The translations under genes and the position numbers were made by a program. Below, in pieces: positions 9,128-17,347 of a DNA stretch of 39,414 bases; the first letter of the stretch is position 1, and each line of letters starts with the position of its first letter. The notes under the pieces were generated by a model, which saw only the letters and a list, made by a program, of their open reading frames with translations, made no database searches and was not told where the DNA came from. Source of the stretch: Clostridia bacterium (GTDB lineage Bacteria; Bacillota; Clostridia; Christensenellales; Aristaeellaceae). The DNA lies in contig JAFWSH010000018.1 in assembly GCA_017519405.1 (NCBI GenBank), positions 1 to 39,414 on the forward strand. Reading direction: 5' to 3'.

Positions 9128-9652
9128 ATGATACTGGAGACACGGAGACTCCTGCTCCGGGAGATGACCCCGGCGGACTTTGACGCCCTGTTCCGCGTGC
9201 TGGGGGACCCGGAAACCATGTGGCACTACCCCTACACCCCCGACGGGGAGCACGTCCGGGCGTGGATCGCACGGAACATGAAGCGCTACCGGGAAAACGG
9301 CTTCGGGCTGTGGGCGGTGTGCCTGAAGGACACCGGGGAGATGATCGGGGACTGCGGGCTGACGCTGCAGCAGATCCACGGGGAGACCCTCCCGGAGATC
9401 GGCTACCACATCCGCCGGGACTGCCAGCGGAGGGGCTACGCCAGGGAGGCCGCCGGGGCTGTCCGGGACTGGGCCTTCCGGAACACGGACTATCCCGCCC
9501 TGTACTCCTACTGCAAATACACCAACGTGGCGTCCTTCCGCACGGCGGAATCCATCGGCATGCGCTTCGCCTTTGAGTACCCGGACGAGGTGAACGGCAT
9601 CACCCATGTGTCGGTGATCTCCCGGGAGGACTGGCTGAGGGGGAACACCTGA
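9128..9652 (+). CDS. GNAT-family acetyltransferase, RimJ/RimL type
   Basis: A 174-residue protein starting with the hallmark LETRRLLLREMTPADFDAL of the Acetyltransf_3 group. The acetyl-CoA loop is QRRGYAREAAGAV (Q100-x2-G103-x-A105), and NVASFRTAESIGM is the family's late NxxS segment. Members acetylate ribosomal-protein N-termini or small molecules, and which one applies here cannot be told. AGGGAGG lies 7 bases before the ATG. It is 39 bases after the reductase gene. Confidence 0.9.
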   Translation: MILETRRLLLREMTPADFDALFRVLGDPETMWHYPYTPDGEHVRAWIARNMKRYRENGFGLWAVCLKDTGEMIGDCGLTLQQIHGETLPEIGYHIRRDCQRRGYAREAAGAVRDWAFRNTDYPALYSYCKYTNVASFRTAESIGMRFAFEYPDEVNGITHVSVISREDWLRGNT

Positions 9653-9672
9653 CCGGCGGCGCGCCCGGCCCT

Positions 9673-9715
9673 CTACGCACCGTAGGTTGGCATCGCTGCG
9701 CGCCCGTGGTAGACT
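9673..9715 (+). promoter_or_regulatory. Probable promoter and palindrome before the XRE-desulfoferrodoxin gene
   Basis: TTGGCA (9687-9692), a 17-base spacer and TAGACT (9710-9715) make a moderate promoter. A short palindrome, CTACG-CAC-CGTAG (9673-9685), lies directly upstream of the -35 box and could be a regulator site or the stem of a weak terminator for the preceding gene. Confidence 0.5.
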
Positions 9716-9738
9716 GGCCCCGTAAGGAGGCGAAAGCG

Positions 9739-10350
9739 ATGGACAACTATGTGACCGGCGCTGCCATCAAAGGCTTGCGGGAAGCCAAATGCCTGACCCA
9801 GGAGGAGCTGGCGGCGCGCATCCATGTGAGCGCCAAGGCGGTGAGCAAGTGGGAGACGGGCCGGGGTTTCCCGGACATCAGCCTGCTGGAGCCGCTGGCG
9901 GAAGCCCTGGACATCTCGGTGATCGAGCTGCTGTCGGGCTGCACCATCCGCAACCGGAACAAGGCGGCCAACATGCTCCGGAGCCGTCTGTACGTCTGCC
10001 CGGCCTGCGGCAATGTGATCCAGGCCACCGGCGAGGCGGTGGTCAGCTGCTGCGGGATCACGCTGCCGCCGCAGGAAGCGGAGGAAGCGGAGGAGGAGCA
10101 TCCCATACGGGTTGAGGTGGTGGAGGACGAGTACCATGTGTCCGTGGATCACCCCATGACGAAGGCGCACTATCTCTCCTTCCTGATGGCGGTATCCGAC
10201 CAGGGCACCCAGTTCGTCAGGCTGTACCCCGAGGGGAACGCCGAGGCCAGGTTCAAGATCAGCGGCGTGAGGATCCTGTACGCCTTCTGCAACCGCCACG
10301 GCCTGTTTCAGCACAGGATCGGGCGGGAGAAAAAGGAGGTGCTGTCATGA
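9739..10350 (+). CDS. XRE-family regulator fused to a desulfoferrodoxin-like two-iron region
   Basis: A 203-residue protein. Residues 6-62 are an XRE/Cro helix-turn-helix (LTQEELAARIHVSAKAVSKWETGRG). Residues 85-105 have the desulforedoxin centre I pattern: YVCPACG (C87, C90) and SCCG (C104, C105). Residues 121-188 match superoxide reductase centre II: H121, H138 in HPMT, H144 in AHY, and CNRHG (C184, H187), so all five expected ligands are kept. The fusion suggests a DNA-binding sensor of superoxide, peroxide, oxygen or iron rather than only an enzyme; this is inference. TAAGGAGG lies 8 bases before the ATG. The end overlaps the next small gene as ATGA. Confidence 0.88.
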   Translation: MDNYVTGAAIKGLREAKCLTQEELAARIHVSAKAVSKWETGRGFPDISLLEPLAEALDISVIELLSGCTIRNRNKAANMLRSRLYVCPACGNVIQATGEAVVSCCGITLPPQEAEEAEEEHPIRVEVVEDEYHVSVDHPMTKAHYLSFLMAVSDQGTQFVRLYPEGNAEARFKISGVRILYAFCNRHGLFQHRIGREKKEVLS

Positions 10351-10532
10351 AGCAGGAGCTGATGGCGGGGATTGCGATCGGCCTGATCGGACTGTGCCTG
10401 CTGCTCATCCCCATCGGGAGGTTGTGAGCGATCACGGAGCAATGGAAATCAAAGGGAAACAGCCAGCCTTCCAGGAACTATACGATGCTGATGCGCGTAT
10501 TGGGCGCAGCGCTGATCGTATACGGTCTGTGA
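10347..10532 (+). pseudogene. DUF6199-like small membrane protein gene interrupted by in-frame TGA
   Basis: From ATG 10347, after a strong AAGGAGGT (10333-10340), the frame encodes a 26-residue hydrophobic peptide (MKQELMAGIAIGLIGLCLLL...) ending at TGA 10425-10427. The same frame continues for 34 codons to TGA 10530-10532: AITEQWKSKGNSQPSR, then a second hydrophobic segment (VLGAALIVYGL). From memory, DUF6199-type proteins of about 60 residues have helix, W-x-x-TExWKSK, PS..Y, R, helix, with Trp where the TGA stands. A TGG-to-TGA change is the simplest reading. The product may be a 26-residue single-span peptide, or full length if TGA is read through. It is coupled to the regulator gene by ATGA overlap. 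Confidence 0.7.
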
Positions 10533-10549
10533 GGAGAAAGGAAACGGGT

Positions 10550-11233
10550 ATGAAAATCCTTGTGCTGAGCGGCAGCCCCAAAGTGGAAAGCGACACCTTC
10601 CGCATGACGGAGGCCTTCCTGAGGGGCCTGAACCCCTGCGGAACGCACGACGTCCACGTCATCCACGTGCGGGAAAAGCACATCGCCCCCTGCCGGGGCT
10701 GCTTCGGCTGCTGGCAGCGGGGGGACGGGCACTGCGTGATCGGGGACGACCAGAACGGCATTCTGGACCTGTACCGCAGCGCGGACGTGATCCTCTGGAG
10801 CTTCCCCCTGTACTGCTACGGCATGCCGGCGCCCCTGAAGGCCGTGCTGGACCGGACCATCCCCCTGGTGAGGATGCGCATGGTACAGCAGCCCGACGGC
10901 ACGGTGCGCCACGAGCCCCTGGTGGATTTCTCCCGGATCCATACCCTGGTGATCTGCGGCTGCGGCTTTCCCCACTGGGAGGGGAATTTCGACAGCCTGA
11001 GGCAGATGTGCAGCGCCTGCTTCGGCCATCCGGATATGGTCTGCGTGCCGGAGACGCCGCTGATGCACGTGCCCGAGGCCGCCGTGGTGGCGGAGCCCCT
11101 GCTGCGGCGCTTTGAGGAGGCCGGGGCGGAGTACGCGCAGCGGCTCACCCTCTCCCCGGAGACCGTCGCTGCCCTGGAGCGGCCCATGATTCCCGGGGAA
11201 ATGTACATCCGGCATGTGAACGGAGACGCGTAG
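10550..11233 (+). CDS. Iron-sulfur flavoprotein / NAD(P)H-dependent FMN oxidoreductase
   Basis: A 227-residue flavodoxin-fold protein. The start MKILVLSGSPKVESDTFRM holds the FMN phosphate-binding SGSP loop. The motif C48-x2-C51-x2-C54-x7-C62 matches the compact cysteine motif of Isf-type iron-sulfur flavoproteins, which bind an Fe-S cluster next to FMN. WSFPLYCYGMPAPLKAVLDR is the flavin-side loop of the family. ATG 10550 is chosen with AAAGGAAA just upstream and because the FMN loop begins at once; an upstream in-frame start at 10394 would overlap the small membrane gene. Known relatives reduce oxygen, peroxide or quinones. Next to a desulfoferrodoxin-type regulator this fits oxidative-stress defence. 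Confidence 0.88.
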   Translation: MKILVLSGSPKVESDTFRMTEAFLRGLNPCGTHDVHVIHVREKHIAPCRGCFGCWQRGDGHCVIGDDQNGILDLYRSADVILWSFPLYCYGMPAPLKAVLDRTIPLVRMRMVQQPDGTVRHEPLVDFSRIHTLVICGCGFPHWEGNFDSLRQMCSACFGHPDMVCVPETPLMHVPEAAVVAEPLLRRFEEAGAEYAQRLTLSPETVAALERPMIPGEMYIRHVNGDA

Positions 11234-14338: not shown

Positions 14339-14376
14339 AGCCTGTGGACAGAATTCGAGTCGTCGGGAGGAATAGG

Positions 14377-14589
14377 ATGATGCCATTGAGTTACGCAAAC
14401 CCGGGGGAGGAATCCGTGATCCGCAAGATCGGCGGGAGTCCGGAGGTCAAGAAGCACCTGGAGAACCTGGGTTTCGTGGTGGGCGGCACAGCCACCGTCA
14501 TCACTTCCCTGAACGGGAATGTGATCGTGAAGGTGAAGGAATCCCGCGTGGCCATCGACGACGAGATGGCCCGCAAGATCATGATATAA
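14377..14589 (+). CDS. feoA: FeoA-family ferrous iron transport protein (first copy)
   Basis: A 70-residue SH3-like protein that works with FeoB at the cytoplasmic face of the membrane. The sequence has the FeoA pattern IRKIGGSPEVKKHLENLGFVVGG, then TVITSLNGNVIVKVKESRVAIDDEMARKIMI. ATG 14377 is chosen because GGGAGG (14365-14370) lies 6 bases upstream; an upstream in-frame GTG has no support. It is the first gene of feoA-feoA-feoB and is followed 14 bases later by the second feoA. Confidence 0.92.
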   Translation: MMPLSYANPGEESVIRKIGGSPEVKKHLENLGFVVGGTATVITSLNGNVIVKVKESRVAIDDEMARKIMI

Positions 14590-14603
14590 CAGGAGGTACG
14601 GAC

Positions 14604-14825
14604 ATGAACAATCTGCGGGAAGTGCCGGTGGGCGGCAAGGCAAAGGTGGTCAAAATCCACGGCGAGGGCGCCGTCAAACGCAGGATCATGGACATGGGCA
14701 TCACCAAGGGCGTGGAGATCTTCGTGCGGAAGGTGGCGCCCCTGGGGGACCCCATCGAGATCACCGTCCGGGGTTATGAGCTCTCCCTGCGCAAGGCGGA
14801 TGCCGAGAGCATTGAGGTGGAGTGA
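14604..14825 (+). CDS. feoA: FeoA-family ferrous iron transport protein (second copy)
   Basis: A 73-residue FeoA protein: LREVPVGGKAKVVKIHGEGAVKRRIMDMGITKGVEIFVRKVAPLGDPIEITVRGYELSLRKADAESIEVE follows the family closely, with the RRIMDMGITKG helix and the GDPIEI strand. It differs considerably from the first copy, so the two may have separate partners or roles. An AGGAGG site precedes the ATG. Tandem divergent FeoA copies before feoB are common in Clostridia. Confidence 0.94.
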   Translation: MNNLREVPVGGKAKVVKIHGEGAVKRRIMDMGITKGVEIFVRKVAPLGDPIEITVRGYELSLRKADAESIEVE

Positions 14826-14841
14826 TTTTTTCTGCCCACGG

Positions 14842-14859
14842 GTTAGTATCATCTAATAT
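14842..14859 (+). promoter_or_regulatory. Third DtxR-like box, before feoB
   Basis: TTAG-TATCAT-CTAA (14843-14856) is an inverted repeat in the short gap between the second feoA and feoB, sharing GTTAGT with box 2 at the operon promoter. TAATAT (14854-14859) overlaps it and could be a -10 element, but no good -35 is seen. It may be an internal iron-controlled promoter or a second repressor contact. Confidence 0.5.
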
Positions 14860-14884
14860 TCACTGCAAACTGGAGGAATGTACG

Positions 14885-17347
14885 ATGGATATCCGCATTG
14901 CCCTGGCCGGCAACCCCAACAGCGGCAAGACCACCCTCTTCAACGCCCTGACCGGCTCCAATCAGTTCGTGGGCAACTGGCCCGGGGTCACGGTGGAGAA
15001 GAAGGAAGGCAAGCTCCGGAAGCACGACGGGGTTACCATCACCGACCTGCCGGGCATCTACAGCCTCTCCCCCTACACCCTGGAGGAGGTGGTGGCCCGG
15101 AACTATCTGATCAACGAGCGCCCGGACGCCATCCTGAACATCATCGACGGCACCAACCTGGAGCGGAACCTGTACCTCACCACCCAGCTGGTGGAGCTGG
15201 GCATCCCGGTGGTGGTGGCCATCAACATGATGGACGTGGTGAAGAAGAACGGTGACAAGCTGAACACCGCTGATCTGGCCAAACAGCTGGGCTGCCGGGT
15301 GCTGGAGATCTCCGCCCTGAAGGGCACCGGCGTGATGGAGGCCGCCGAGGCAGCCATCGAGGCAGCCCAGGGCACCCGCACCATTCCCCAGCACACCTTC
15401 TCCGGCCCGGTGGAGCACGCCCTGGCCCACATCGAGGAGGCGGCCGTGCACAGCATGCCGGAGGAGCAGCAGCGCTGGTATGCCATCAAGGTCTTCGAGC
15501 GGGACGACAAGGTGCTGAAGCAGCTGGCCATCCCGGCGGAAACCATGGCCCACATCGAGGCTGACATCGCCGCCGCGGAGAAGGAGCTGGACGACGACGC
15601 GGAGAGCATCATCACCAACGAGCGGTATGTGTACATCGCCCAGGTGATCCGCTCCTGCTACCGCAAGCACAACGCGGGCAGCCTGTCCGTCTCGGACAAG
15701 ATCGACAAAGTGGTCACCAACCGCTGGCTGGGGCTGCCCATCTTCGCCCTGGTGATGTTCGCGGTGTACTGGATCGCCATGGTGGGTGTGGGCGCGCCCG
15801 CCACGGACTGGGCCAACGACGGCCTCTTCGGCGACGGCTTCCACCTCTTCGGCAACGGCACCGCCCAGTACGTGGCGGCGGCGGAGCGCTACGGGGACAC
15901 AGACCAGATCATCGAGGCCTTCTCGGCGGAATACGGCGTGGAGATCGACGAAGAGAACCCGGGGGATTCCCTGCAGGCCCTGCTGGCCGCGGTGCCCGAG
16001 GACGCCTCCGTGACCTACATCACCCAGGACGAGGAAACCCTGGAGACCGAGGAGCACCCCGGCACCGGCAAGGCGGAGCTGCAGGCGGCGGTGGACGAAT
16101 TCCTGAGCACCGAAGCCGGCTATAAGACGGATGTGGGCGCGCCCGACCCGGCGAATTACGGCACCTGGGTGCCCGGCATTCCGGTGCTGGTGGAGCGGGG
16201 CCTGGATGCCGTCAACGCCGCCCCCTGGCTGAAGGGGCTGATCCTGGACGGCATTGTGGCGGGCGTGGGCGCCGTGCTGGGCTTCGTGCCCCAGATGCTG
16301 GTGCTCTTCCTGCTGCTGGCCTTCCTGGAGGCCTGCGGCTACATGGCCCGGATCGCCTTCGTGCTGGACCGGATTTTCCGCAAGTTCGGCCTGTCGGGCA
16401 AGTCCTTCATCCCCATGCTCATCGGCGTGGGCTGCGGTGTGCCGGGCATCATGGCCTCCCGCACCATTGAGAATGAGCGGGACCGGCGCATGACCATCAT
16501 GACCACCACCTTCATCCCCTGCAGCGCGAAGGTGCCCTTCATCGCCATGATCGCCGGCGCTATCTTCCACAAGTCCGCCTGGGTGGCCACCAGCGCCTAC
16601 TTCATCGGTATGGCGGCCATCATCATCAGCGGCATCATCCTGAAGAAGACCAAACGCTTTGCCGGGGAGCCCGCCCCCTTCGTCATGGAGCTGCCCGCCT
16701 ACCACTGGCCAACCGTGGGCAACGTGCTCCGCTCCATGTGGGAGCGCGGCTGGAGCTTCATCAAGAAGGCCGGCACCATCATCCTGCTCTCCACCATCCT
16801 GGTGTGGTTCCTGAGCCGCTTCGGCGTGGTGGACGGTGCCTTCCGGATGCTGGAGGAGGAGGAGCTGGACCTGTCCCTGCTGGCCCGATTCGGCAGCCTC
16901 ATCGCCTGGATCTTCAAGCCCCTGGGCTTTGGCACCTGGCAGGCCACGGTGGCCTCCATCACCGGCCTCATCGCCAAGGAGAACATTGTGGGCACCATGG
17001 GCATCCTCTACGGCGGCACCGAGACCTACGCCAACCTGGCCCTGGCCTTCAACGGCATCTCCGCCTACGCCTTCCTGGTGTTCAACCTGCTGTGCGCCCC
17101 CTGCTTTGCGGCCATCGGCGCCATCCGGCGGGAGATGAACAACGCGGGCTGGACCTGGTTCGCCATCGGCTGGCAGTGCGGCTTCGCCTACGCGGTGGCC
17201 CTGATGATCTACCAGTTCGGCCTGCTCTTCACCGGCCAGGTGAACGTCATCGGCCTCATCGCGGCCCTGGCCGTGCTGGGCGCCATGGTGTACATGCTGT
17301 TCTTCAAGAAGTATCACGAGGCCACCAAACTGACCCGAAAGGTGTGA
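14885..17347 (+). CDS. feoB: Ferrous iron transporter FeoB
   Basis: An 820-residue GTP-dependent inner-membrane Fe(II) importer. The N-terminal G domain has G1 GNPNSGKT (9-16), G3 DLPG (54-57), G4 NMMD (114-117) and G5 ISALKG. A helical spacer (about 170-265) follows, then the membrane part with two gate repeats (GVGCGVPGIMASRTI and the CSAKVPFIAMIAG region). Between the first membrane span and YGTWVPGIPVLVERG there is an acidic hydrophilic insert at about residues 315-427, longer than in short FeoB proteins. ATG 14885 is chosen with GGAGG 8 bases upstream. It follows two feoA genes and precedes a FeoB-associated Cys-rich peptide, completing an iron uptake operon. Confidence 0.97.
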   Translation: MDIRIALAGNPNSGKTTLFNALTGSNQFVGNWPGVTVEKKEGKLRKHDGVTITDLPGIYSLSPYTLEEVVARNYLINERPDAILNIIDGTNLERNLYLTTQLVELGIPVVVAINMMDVVKKNGDKLNTADLAKQLGCRVLEISALKGTGVMEAAEAAIEAAQGTRTIPQHTFSGPVEHALAHIEEAAVHSMPEEQQRWYAIKVFERDDKVLKQLAIPAETMAHIEADIAAAEKELDDDAESIITNERYVYIAQVIRSCYRKHNAGSLSVSDKIDKVVTNRWLGLPIFALVMFAVYWIAMVGVGAPATDWANDGLFGDGFHLFGNGTAQYVAAAERYGDTDQIIEAFSAEYGVEIDEENPGDSLQALLAAVPEDASVTYITQDEETLETEEHPGTGKAELQAAVDEFLSTEAGYKTDVGAPDPANYGTWVPGIPVLVERGLDAVNAAPWLKGLILDGIVAGVGAVLGFVPQMLVLFLLLAFLEACGYMARIAFVLDRIFRKFGLSGKSFIPMLIGVGCGVPGIMASRTIENERDRRMTIMTTTFIPCSAKVPFIAMIAGAIFHKSAWVATSAYFIGMAAIIISGIILKKTKRFAGEPAPFVMELPAYHWPTVGNVLRSMWERGWSFIKKAGTIILLSTILVWFLSRFGVVDGAFRMLEEEELDLSLLARFGSLIAWIFKPLGFGTWQATVASITGLIAKENIVGTMGILYGGTETYANLALAFNGISAYAFLVFNLLCAPCFAAIGAIRREMNNAGWTWFAIGWQCGFAYAVALMIYQFGLLFTGQVNVIGLIAALAVLGAMVYMLFFKKYHEATKLTRKV

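Follow-up and report, generated by a model that had tools for sequence, protein, structure and literature searches.

A helix-turn-helix protein carrying a two-iron superoxide reductase unit in a Clostridia bacterium, with a conserved palindrome in its own promoter

SoxR and PerR, metal-based regulators of oxidative stress, have other folds than the protein described here, with a [2Fe-2S] cluster in SoxR and Fe held by His/Asp in PerR. Closer in architecture is the class HTH-Dx-SOR, named by SORGOdb in 2011 with 19 proteins, in which an N-terminal helix-turn-helix (HTH) is followed by a desulforedoxin domain and a superoxide reductase (SOR) unit with HX5H and CX2H motifs; the available text of that work describes neither an operator nor a function or mechanism for its members (PMC3116461). 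The names HTH-Dx-SOR, HTH-SOR and Dx-SOR were found only there in the literature searched, to which subscription journals mostly do not belong, and in the same literature no functional study of such a protein was recognised and six spellings of the operator site reported below had no occurrence. A parallel of another kind is BzdR, which couples a DNA-binding domain to one that was formerly an enzyme and whose loss of activity is held to be essential for the regulatory role; its effector domain is shikimate-kinase-like, binds benzoyl-CoA and is no iron redox unit (PMC3602430).

The window analyzed was a 39,414-nucleotide stretch from a Clostridia bacterium, and the fusion gene within it encodes a protein of 203 amino acids (Table 1). 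An earlier note on this DNA had proposed an XRE HTH joined to both iron centers of a SOR, and this was borne out by the reading frame, by Pfam matches above the curated cut-offs to HTH_3 (residues 10–64, E 1.5e-11) and Desulfoferrodox PF01880 (residues 133–191, E 7.8e-6), and by a phmmer match to the SOR of Desulfoarculus baarsii among PDB sequences (residues 81–190, E 5.4e-10). All nine ligand residues that it had named are present and align with the corresponding ligands in 2ji2. Structure prediction and a fold search, which it had asked for, gave a SOR fold with good confidence that matched the SOR structures 2ji2 and 1dfx, while the placement of the two domains relative to each other was unsure (pTM 0.62). 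The HTH shares its fold with P22 c2, likewise by fold match. P22 c2 and the lambda CI-type repressors carry other effector domains.

Table 1. Coordinates of the fusion gene, its domains and its promoter elements in the window.
Feature	Position	Strand	Remarks
Palindromic operator (putative) CTACGCACCGTAG	9673..9685		single exact site in the genome; conserved upstream in relatives
-35 box TTGGCA	9687..9692	+	one base downstream of the operator; relatives share the TTG at this offset
-10 box TAGACT	9710..9715	+	17-nt spacer; TAnnnT at the same offset in relatives
Shine-Dalgarno-like AAGGAGG	9724-9730		ahead of the fusion gene
Fusion gene HTH-Dx-SOR	9739..10350	+	203 aa; ATG start; TGA stop included
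XRE/Cro-C1 helix-turn-helix	9757..9936	+	residues 7-66
Center I (desulforedoxin-like)	9985..10065	+	residues 83-109; C87, C90, C104, C105; CX2CX13CC
Center II (superoxide reductase fold)	10099..10317	+	residues 121-193; H121, H138, H144, C184, H187

The fusion is a variant of the catalogued class, for which no described mechanism was found in the literature searched. As in that class, the HTH lies N-terminal to the Dx-SOR module and center II follows the HX5H ... CX2H pattern (H138-X5-H144, C184-X2-H187), whereas center I, with its four Cys present, is two residues shorter than the CX2CX15CC given for SORs (PMC3116461). The earlier remark that such annotations exist holds good, since SORGOdb had listed the class by 2011 (PMC3116461). 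The architecture is therefore already catalogued, and neither the operator nor the divergence of the reductase half was found in print in the literature searched. Compared with the two-iron SORs (2ji2, 1dfx), whose fold and nine metal ligands it shares, the protein differs in the fused HTH, in the score of 45.7 bits against the desulfoferrodoxin equivalog model TIGR00320 (curated cut-off 146.9), and in lacking the EKHxP loop, in place of which it reads EEHPI at residues 119–123.

This divergence was followed in two sets of relatives, some genomes being in both: 86 fusions encoded by same-family genomes, counting the window protein but not the partial matches in G077 and G139, and the best 80 of 591 loci from a contig search. 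Alignment A1 took 38 of 84 intact fusions and alignment A2 took 72 of 78 non-redundant contig-search relatives. For comparison, 20 stand-alone two-iron SORs were taken from the same bacterial family (16 genomes), a choice of strong matches rather than all such matches. EKHxP stood before the first center II His in 20/20 stand-alone SORs, and its Lys (position 120 in the window protein) was kept in only 4 of 164 fusions, a set in which the window protein is counted and some genomes come from both searches. Some archaeal 1Fe-SORs work without this Lys, so that its loss need not abolish SOR activity, and a study cited by SORGOdb is said to treat the role of Glu and Lys in SOR catalysis. The last center II ligand was His in all 20 stand-alone SORs; among the 164 fusions, position 187 was His in 114, Asp in 48, Gln in one and Ser in one. 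Similarly, the fourth center I Cys (C105) was replaced by His in 29 of the 164, all of them devoid of H187 (28 Asp, 1 Ser), and the X15 spacing of center I in stand-alone SORs was X13 in 166/166 fusions, with Cys or His as the last letter.

The other ligands were held much more firmly. Among the best 80 of 591, the residues C87, C90, C104, H121, H138, H144 and C184 occurred in 80/80 relatives, and the ligand set is thus not due to chance; only C105 (His in 20) and H187 (Asp in 25, Ser in one) were not fixed. In the more divergent same-family set of 86, with two truncated genes, H121 was kept in 83, H138 in 85, and H144 and C184 in 84 each. Of 73 aligned members, 65 matched PF01880 at E 0.01. 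In a quick tree (184 rows, 177 of them different), the fusions formed one clade apart from the 20 SORs (SH-aLRT 100, branch 1.79). On the same tree the H187/D187 pattern needs 10–11 changes, of which the starred branches force 3, so the His/Asp swap at this position probably happened several times. The sequence comparisons place the reductase half of the fusions as diverged from the stand-alone enzymes. Several genomes, e.g., G135, G143, and G148, carry both a fusion and a stand-alone SOR, and no other PF01880 gene was found in the 80%-complete source genome.

Upstream of the fusion gene lies a 13-bp palindrome, CTACGnnnCGTAG, beside the sole promoter recovered by a consensus scan of positions 9600–10600 (0.2 in shuffles). 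The region 9673–9715, earlier named for a gel shift, turns out to be this operator plus promoter. The exact palindrome occurs once in the 2.27-Mb, 80.3% complete genome, against 10 occurrences of the reversed control pattern. For the relatives, 165 upstream regions were merged into 158 distinct ones, and 157 of these, each no shorter than 100 nt, entered the count, a broken gene (L024) having been excluded beforehand. A site with at least eight of the 10 specified bases was present in 151/157 (3.9% in shuffles) and one with at least nine in 117/157 (0.25% in shuffles), and the remaining six reached 7 (L073, L088, and L146), 6 (L086 and L200) and 5 (L186). Its offset to both promoter elements was fixed among relatives, and 133 of the 151 sites began 62–75 nt ahead of the start codon, most commonly at -65/-66. 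Carriers among the best 80 of 591 included Oscillospiraceae and other Clostridia, Lachnospiraceae (Butyrivibrio, Roseburia) and Treponema.

By contrast with the constancy of the site, the neighbors change. No widely conserved neighbor gene was detected within at most 3 kb on each side (some loci being shorter), the widest cluster being present in 12 of 81 loci, and the cluster of the FMN reductase downstream of the window gene in 6/81. The simplest explanation is therefore that the site belongs to the fusion gene itself. A palindrome conserved among orthologs in the own promoter, as looked for in an XRE autoregulator, is found here, and comparative evidence of this kind indicates that the fusion protein very probably binds its own promoter.

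Further sites were sought with the longer pattern CTCTACGnnnCGTAGGTTG, allowing up to 3 mismatches. The source genome had the window site with 0 mismatches and 10 sites with exactly 3, and no others below 3; the totals of 6 forward and 5 reverse compare with 11 and 13 for the reversed control. Within the window, the palindrome with at most one mismatch occurred once, at 9673, and not before the feo genes. A search of 200 genomes of the family gave 71 exact sites in 58 genomes. Comparison with 46 fusion genes placed 34 of the 71 at 62–125 nt upstream of a fusion gene; for 24 of the 34 genomes with such a linked site, it was the only exact one. Three of the 37 unlinked sites precede XRE genes with another C-terminus (G080, G122, and G156), and 20 others that were inspected had mostly different promoter contexts or no fitting promoter; one of these, L115, had the same promoter-type sequence, yet no HTH gene was found there. 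In L105, L106, and L108, CTACGnnnCGTAG sites in another promoter context precede XRE proteins of 361 amino acids, and in L120 such a site, also in another context, is accompanied by a similar XRE ORF on the other strand. In the upstream regions of the 20 stand-alone SORs, which extended at most 320 nt ahead of the first Cys codon (only 69, 145, and 199 nt in three loci), no site of 9/10 was present. Ten had a best score of 7 and nine of 6, and the single 8/10 site, in L237, lay 254 nt ahead of the first Cys; the stand-alone SORs are probably outside the regulon.

The predicted third helix of the HTH spans residues 32–39, and residue 40, directly after this predicted recognition helix, covaried with operator base 12. 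Fusions with T, N or S at residue 40 had A or G at base 12 in 146 of the 147 with a site, the exception combining T with C, and those with R had T or C in 12/14 and G in the other two. Two fusions with Cys at this position comprised one with T at base 12 and one without a site, and three fusions with T likewise had no site. Two proteins with other C-termini and R at residue 40 (L092 and L203) had C at base 12, and L213, also with R, had no site. Fisher's test gave p 2.8e-15, which is no true probability since the rows are related, and common descent within the main clade confounds the link.

A second XRE family was also observed, of about 200 amino acids with a membrane-like stretch and two Cys pairs recognized by eye, which was classed TMZn; sorted by motif, its members are L089–L092, L204, L206, L209–L212, L217, L219, and L222. 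Pfam found only HTH-type domains in one of them, L089. A similar palindrome lies upstream of 12 of the 13 (not L222), in two copies in some. Because XRE proteins with unrelated C-termini share the palindrome and residue 40 tracks base 12, the HTH is probably what reads the site.

The reading favored here, as reasonably probable, is that of an autoregulatory one-component transcription factor in which an XRE HTH is coupled to a two-iron SOR unit that shifted from enzyme to sensor. A dimer would bind CTACGnnnCGTAG beside the -35 box of the own gene, for which the comparison gives strong support. Conformation would depend on the iron of the SOR unit, which would be in its reduced state in the anaerobic cell; if this iron were lost, or oxidized by superoxide, peroxide or oxygen, the loop carrying H121 would be altered, and the altered loop could then shift the pose of the HTH and change transcription of the own gene. 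With the predicted transcription start placed 7 nt past the -10 box, the operator is centered about 43 bp ahead of it, a position compatible with either repression, by covering the -35 box, or activation, and lambda CI activates from a comparable position. Repression appears slightly the likelier of the two.

The earlier proposal had been a direct sensor of superoxide, peroxide, oxygen or iron, or else a reductase tethered to DNA. Its regulator part is strongly supported by the conserved operator in the own promoter, and the sensor is favored over the tethered reductase because the EKHxP loop and one center II ligand have drifted in the fusions and not in the 20 SORs; the sequence does not tell which of the four signals applies. 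That the catalytic loop was lost while most metal ligands were kept agrees with the conversion of an enzyme into a sensor, along the lines argued for BzdR (PMC3602430). Overall, the regulator reading is well supported and a sensor is likely, against which the six of 157 upstream regions without an 8/10 site have to be counted. A wider proposition, put forward tentatively, is that a widespread class of one-component factors in anaerobes uses the SOR Fe(His)4Cys center to sense superoxide, oxygen or peroxide directly. Sensor tuning would come from the repeated His to Asp change at one iron ligand, joined in one group by Cys to His at center I, and from the site at about -43 the protein could activate or repress its own expression. 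A catalogued fusion lacking a described mechanism would in this way become a testable circuit made up of a single protein and promoter, a defined 13-bp site and ligand variants found in nature. If superoxide or oxygen sensing is true, anaerobes would have a novel type of metal-based sensor, and the protein would be a clear example of an iron enzyme that turned into a regulator.

The chief rival to the sensor is a still-working reductase that regulates its own dose, with the HTH merely adjusting the amount through the own promoter. A regulon of a single site fits both, and the own gene as the one clear target is what an enzyme controlling its own dose would show; the window protein keeps all nine ligands, no second PF01880 gene was found that could be set beside it in the 80%-complete genome, and the near invariance of the other center II ligands (H121, H138, H144, and C184 in every one of the best 80 of 591) is something an active enzyme would need too. 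Nevertheless, the EKHxP Lys persists in 4/164 fusions against 20/20 stand-alone SORs, H187 has become Asp in 48/164, and fusion and stand-alone SOR coexist in G135, G143, and G148 among others, which leaves this explanation rather unlikely.

Somewhat less likely still is a metal-level regulator, whose sites would report iron (or zinc) occupancy by an apo versus metal-bound switch and not redox state. It agrees with the conserved Cys4 and His4Cys sites, in which the Cys to His and His to Asp swaps keep metal-binding letters, and with the feoA-feoA-feoB genes in the window (14344–17347), but the palindrome at 9673, with at most one mismatch the only one in the window, is not before those genes. 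The fold matches of the HTH also include hydroxypropylphosphonate epoxidase (HppE), in which an HTH is joined to an iron enzyme domain. The HTH of HppE is not known to serve as a regulator, and the HTH here could by analogy be a structural part of an iron enzyme without DNA binding; conservation of the operator, and its agreement with residue 40, make this highly improbable. The enzyme-turned-sensor interpretation remains the one preferred over these three.

TrtA of Treponema denticola was weighed as well and set aside, being a protein of 104 amino acids with similarity only to the XRE HTH in the available text (PMC12724145). Around the fusion gene, the ferrous iron uptake genes feoA-feoA-feoB lie on the same (+) strand about 4 kb downstream. 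An ORF for a membrane peptide of 26 amino acids (10347–10427, + strand) overlaps the fusion gene stop and resembles the start of a DUF6199-like protein of about 70 amino acids encoded immediately after the fusion gene in L004, L005, and L014, the DUF6199 assignment having been tested on the L004 copy; judged by this resemblance, the ORF in the window looks like a shortened remnant.
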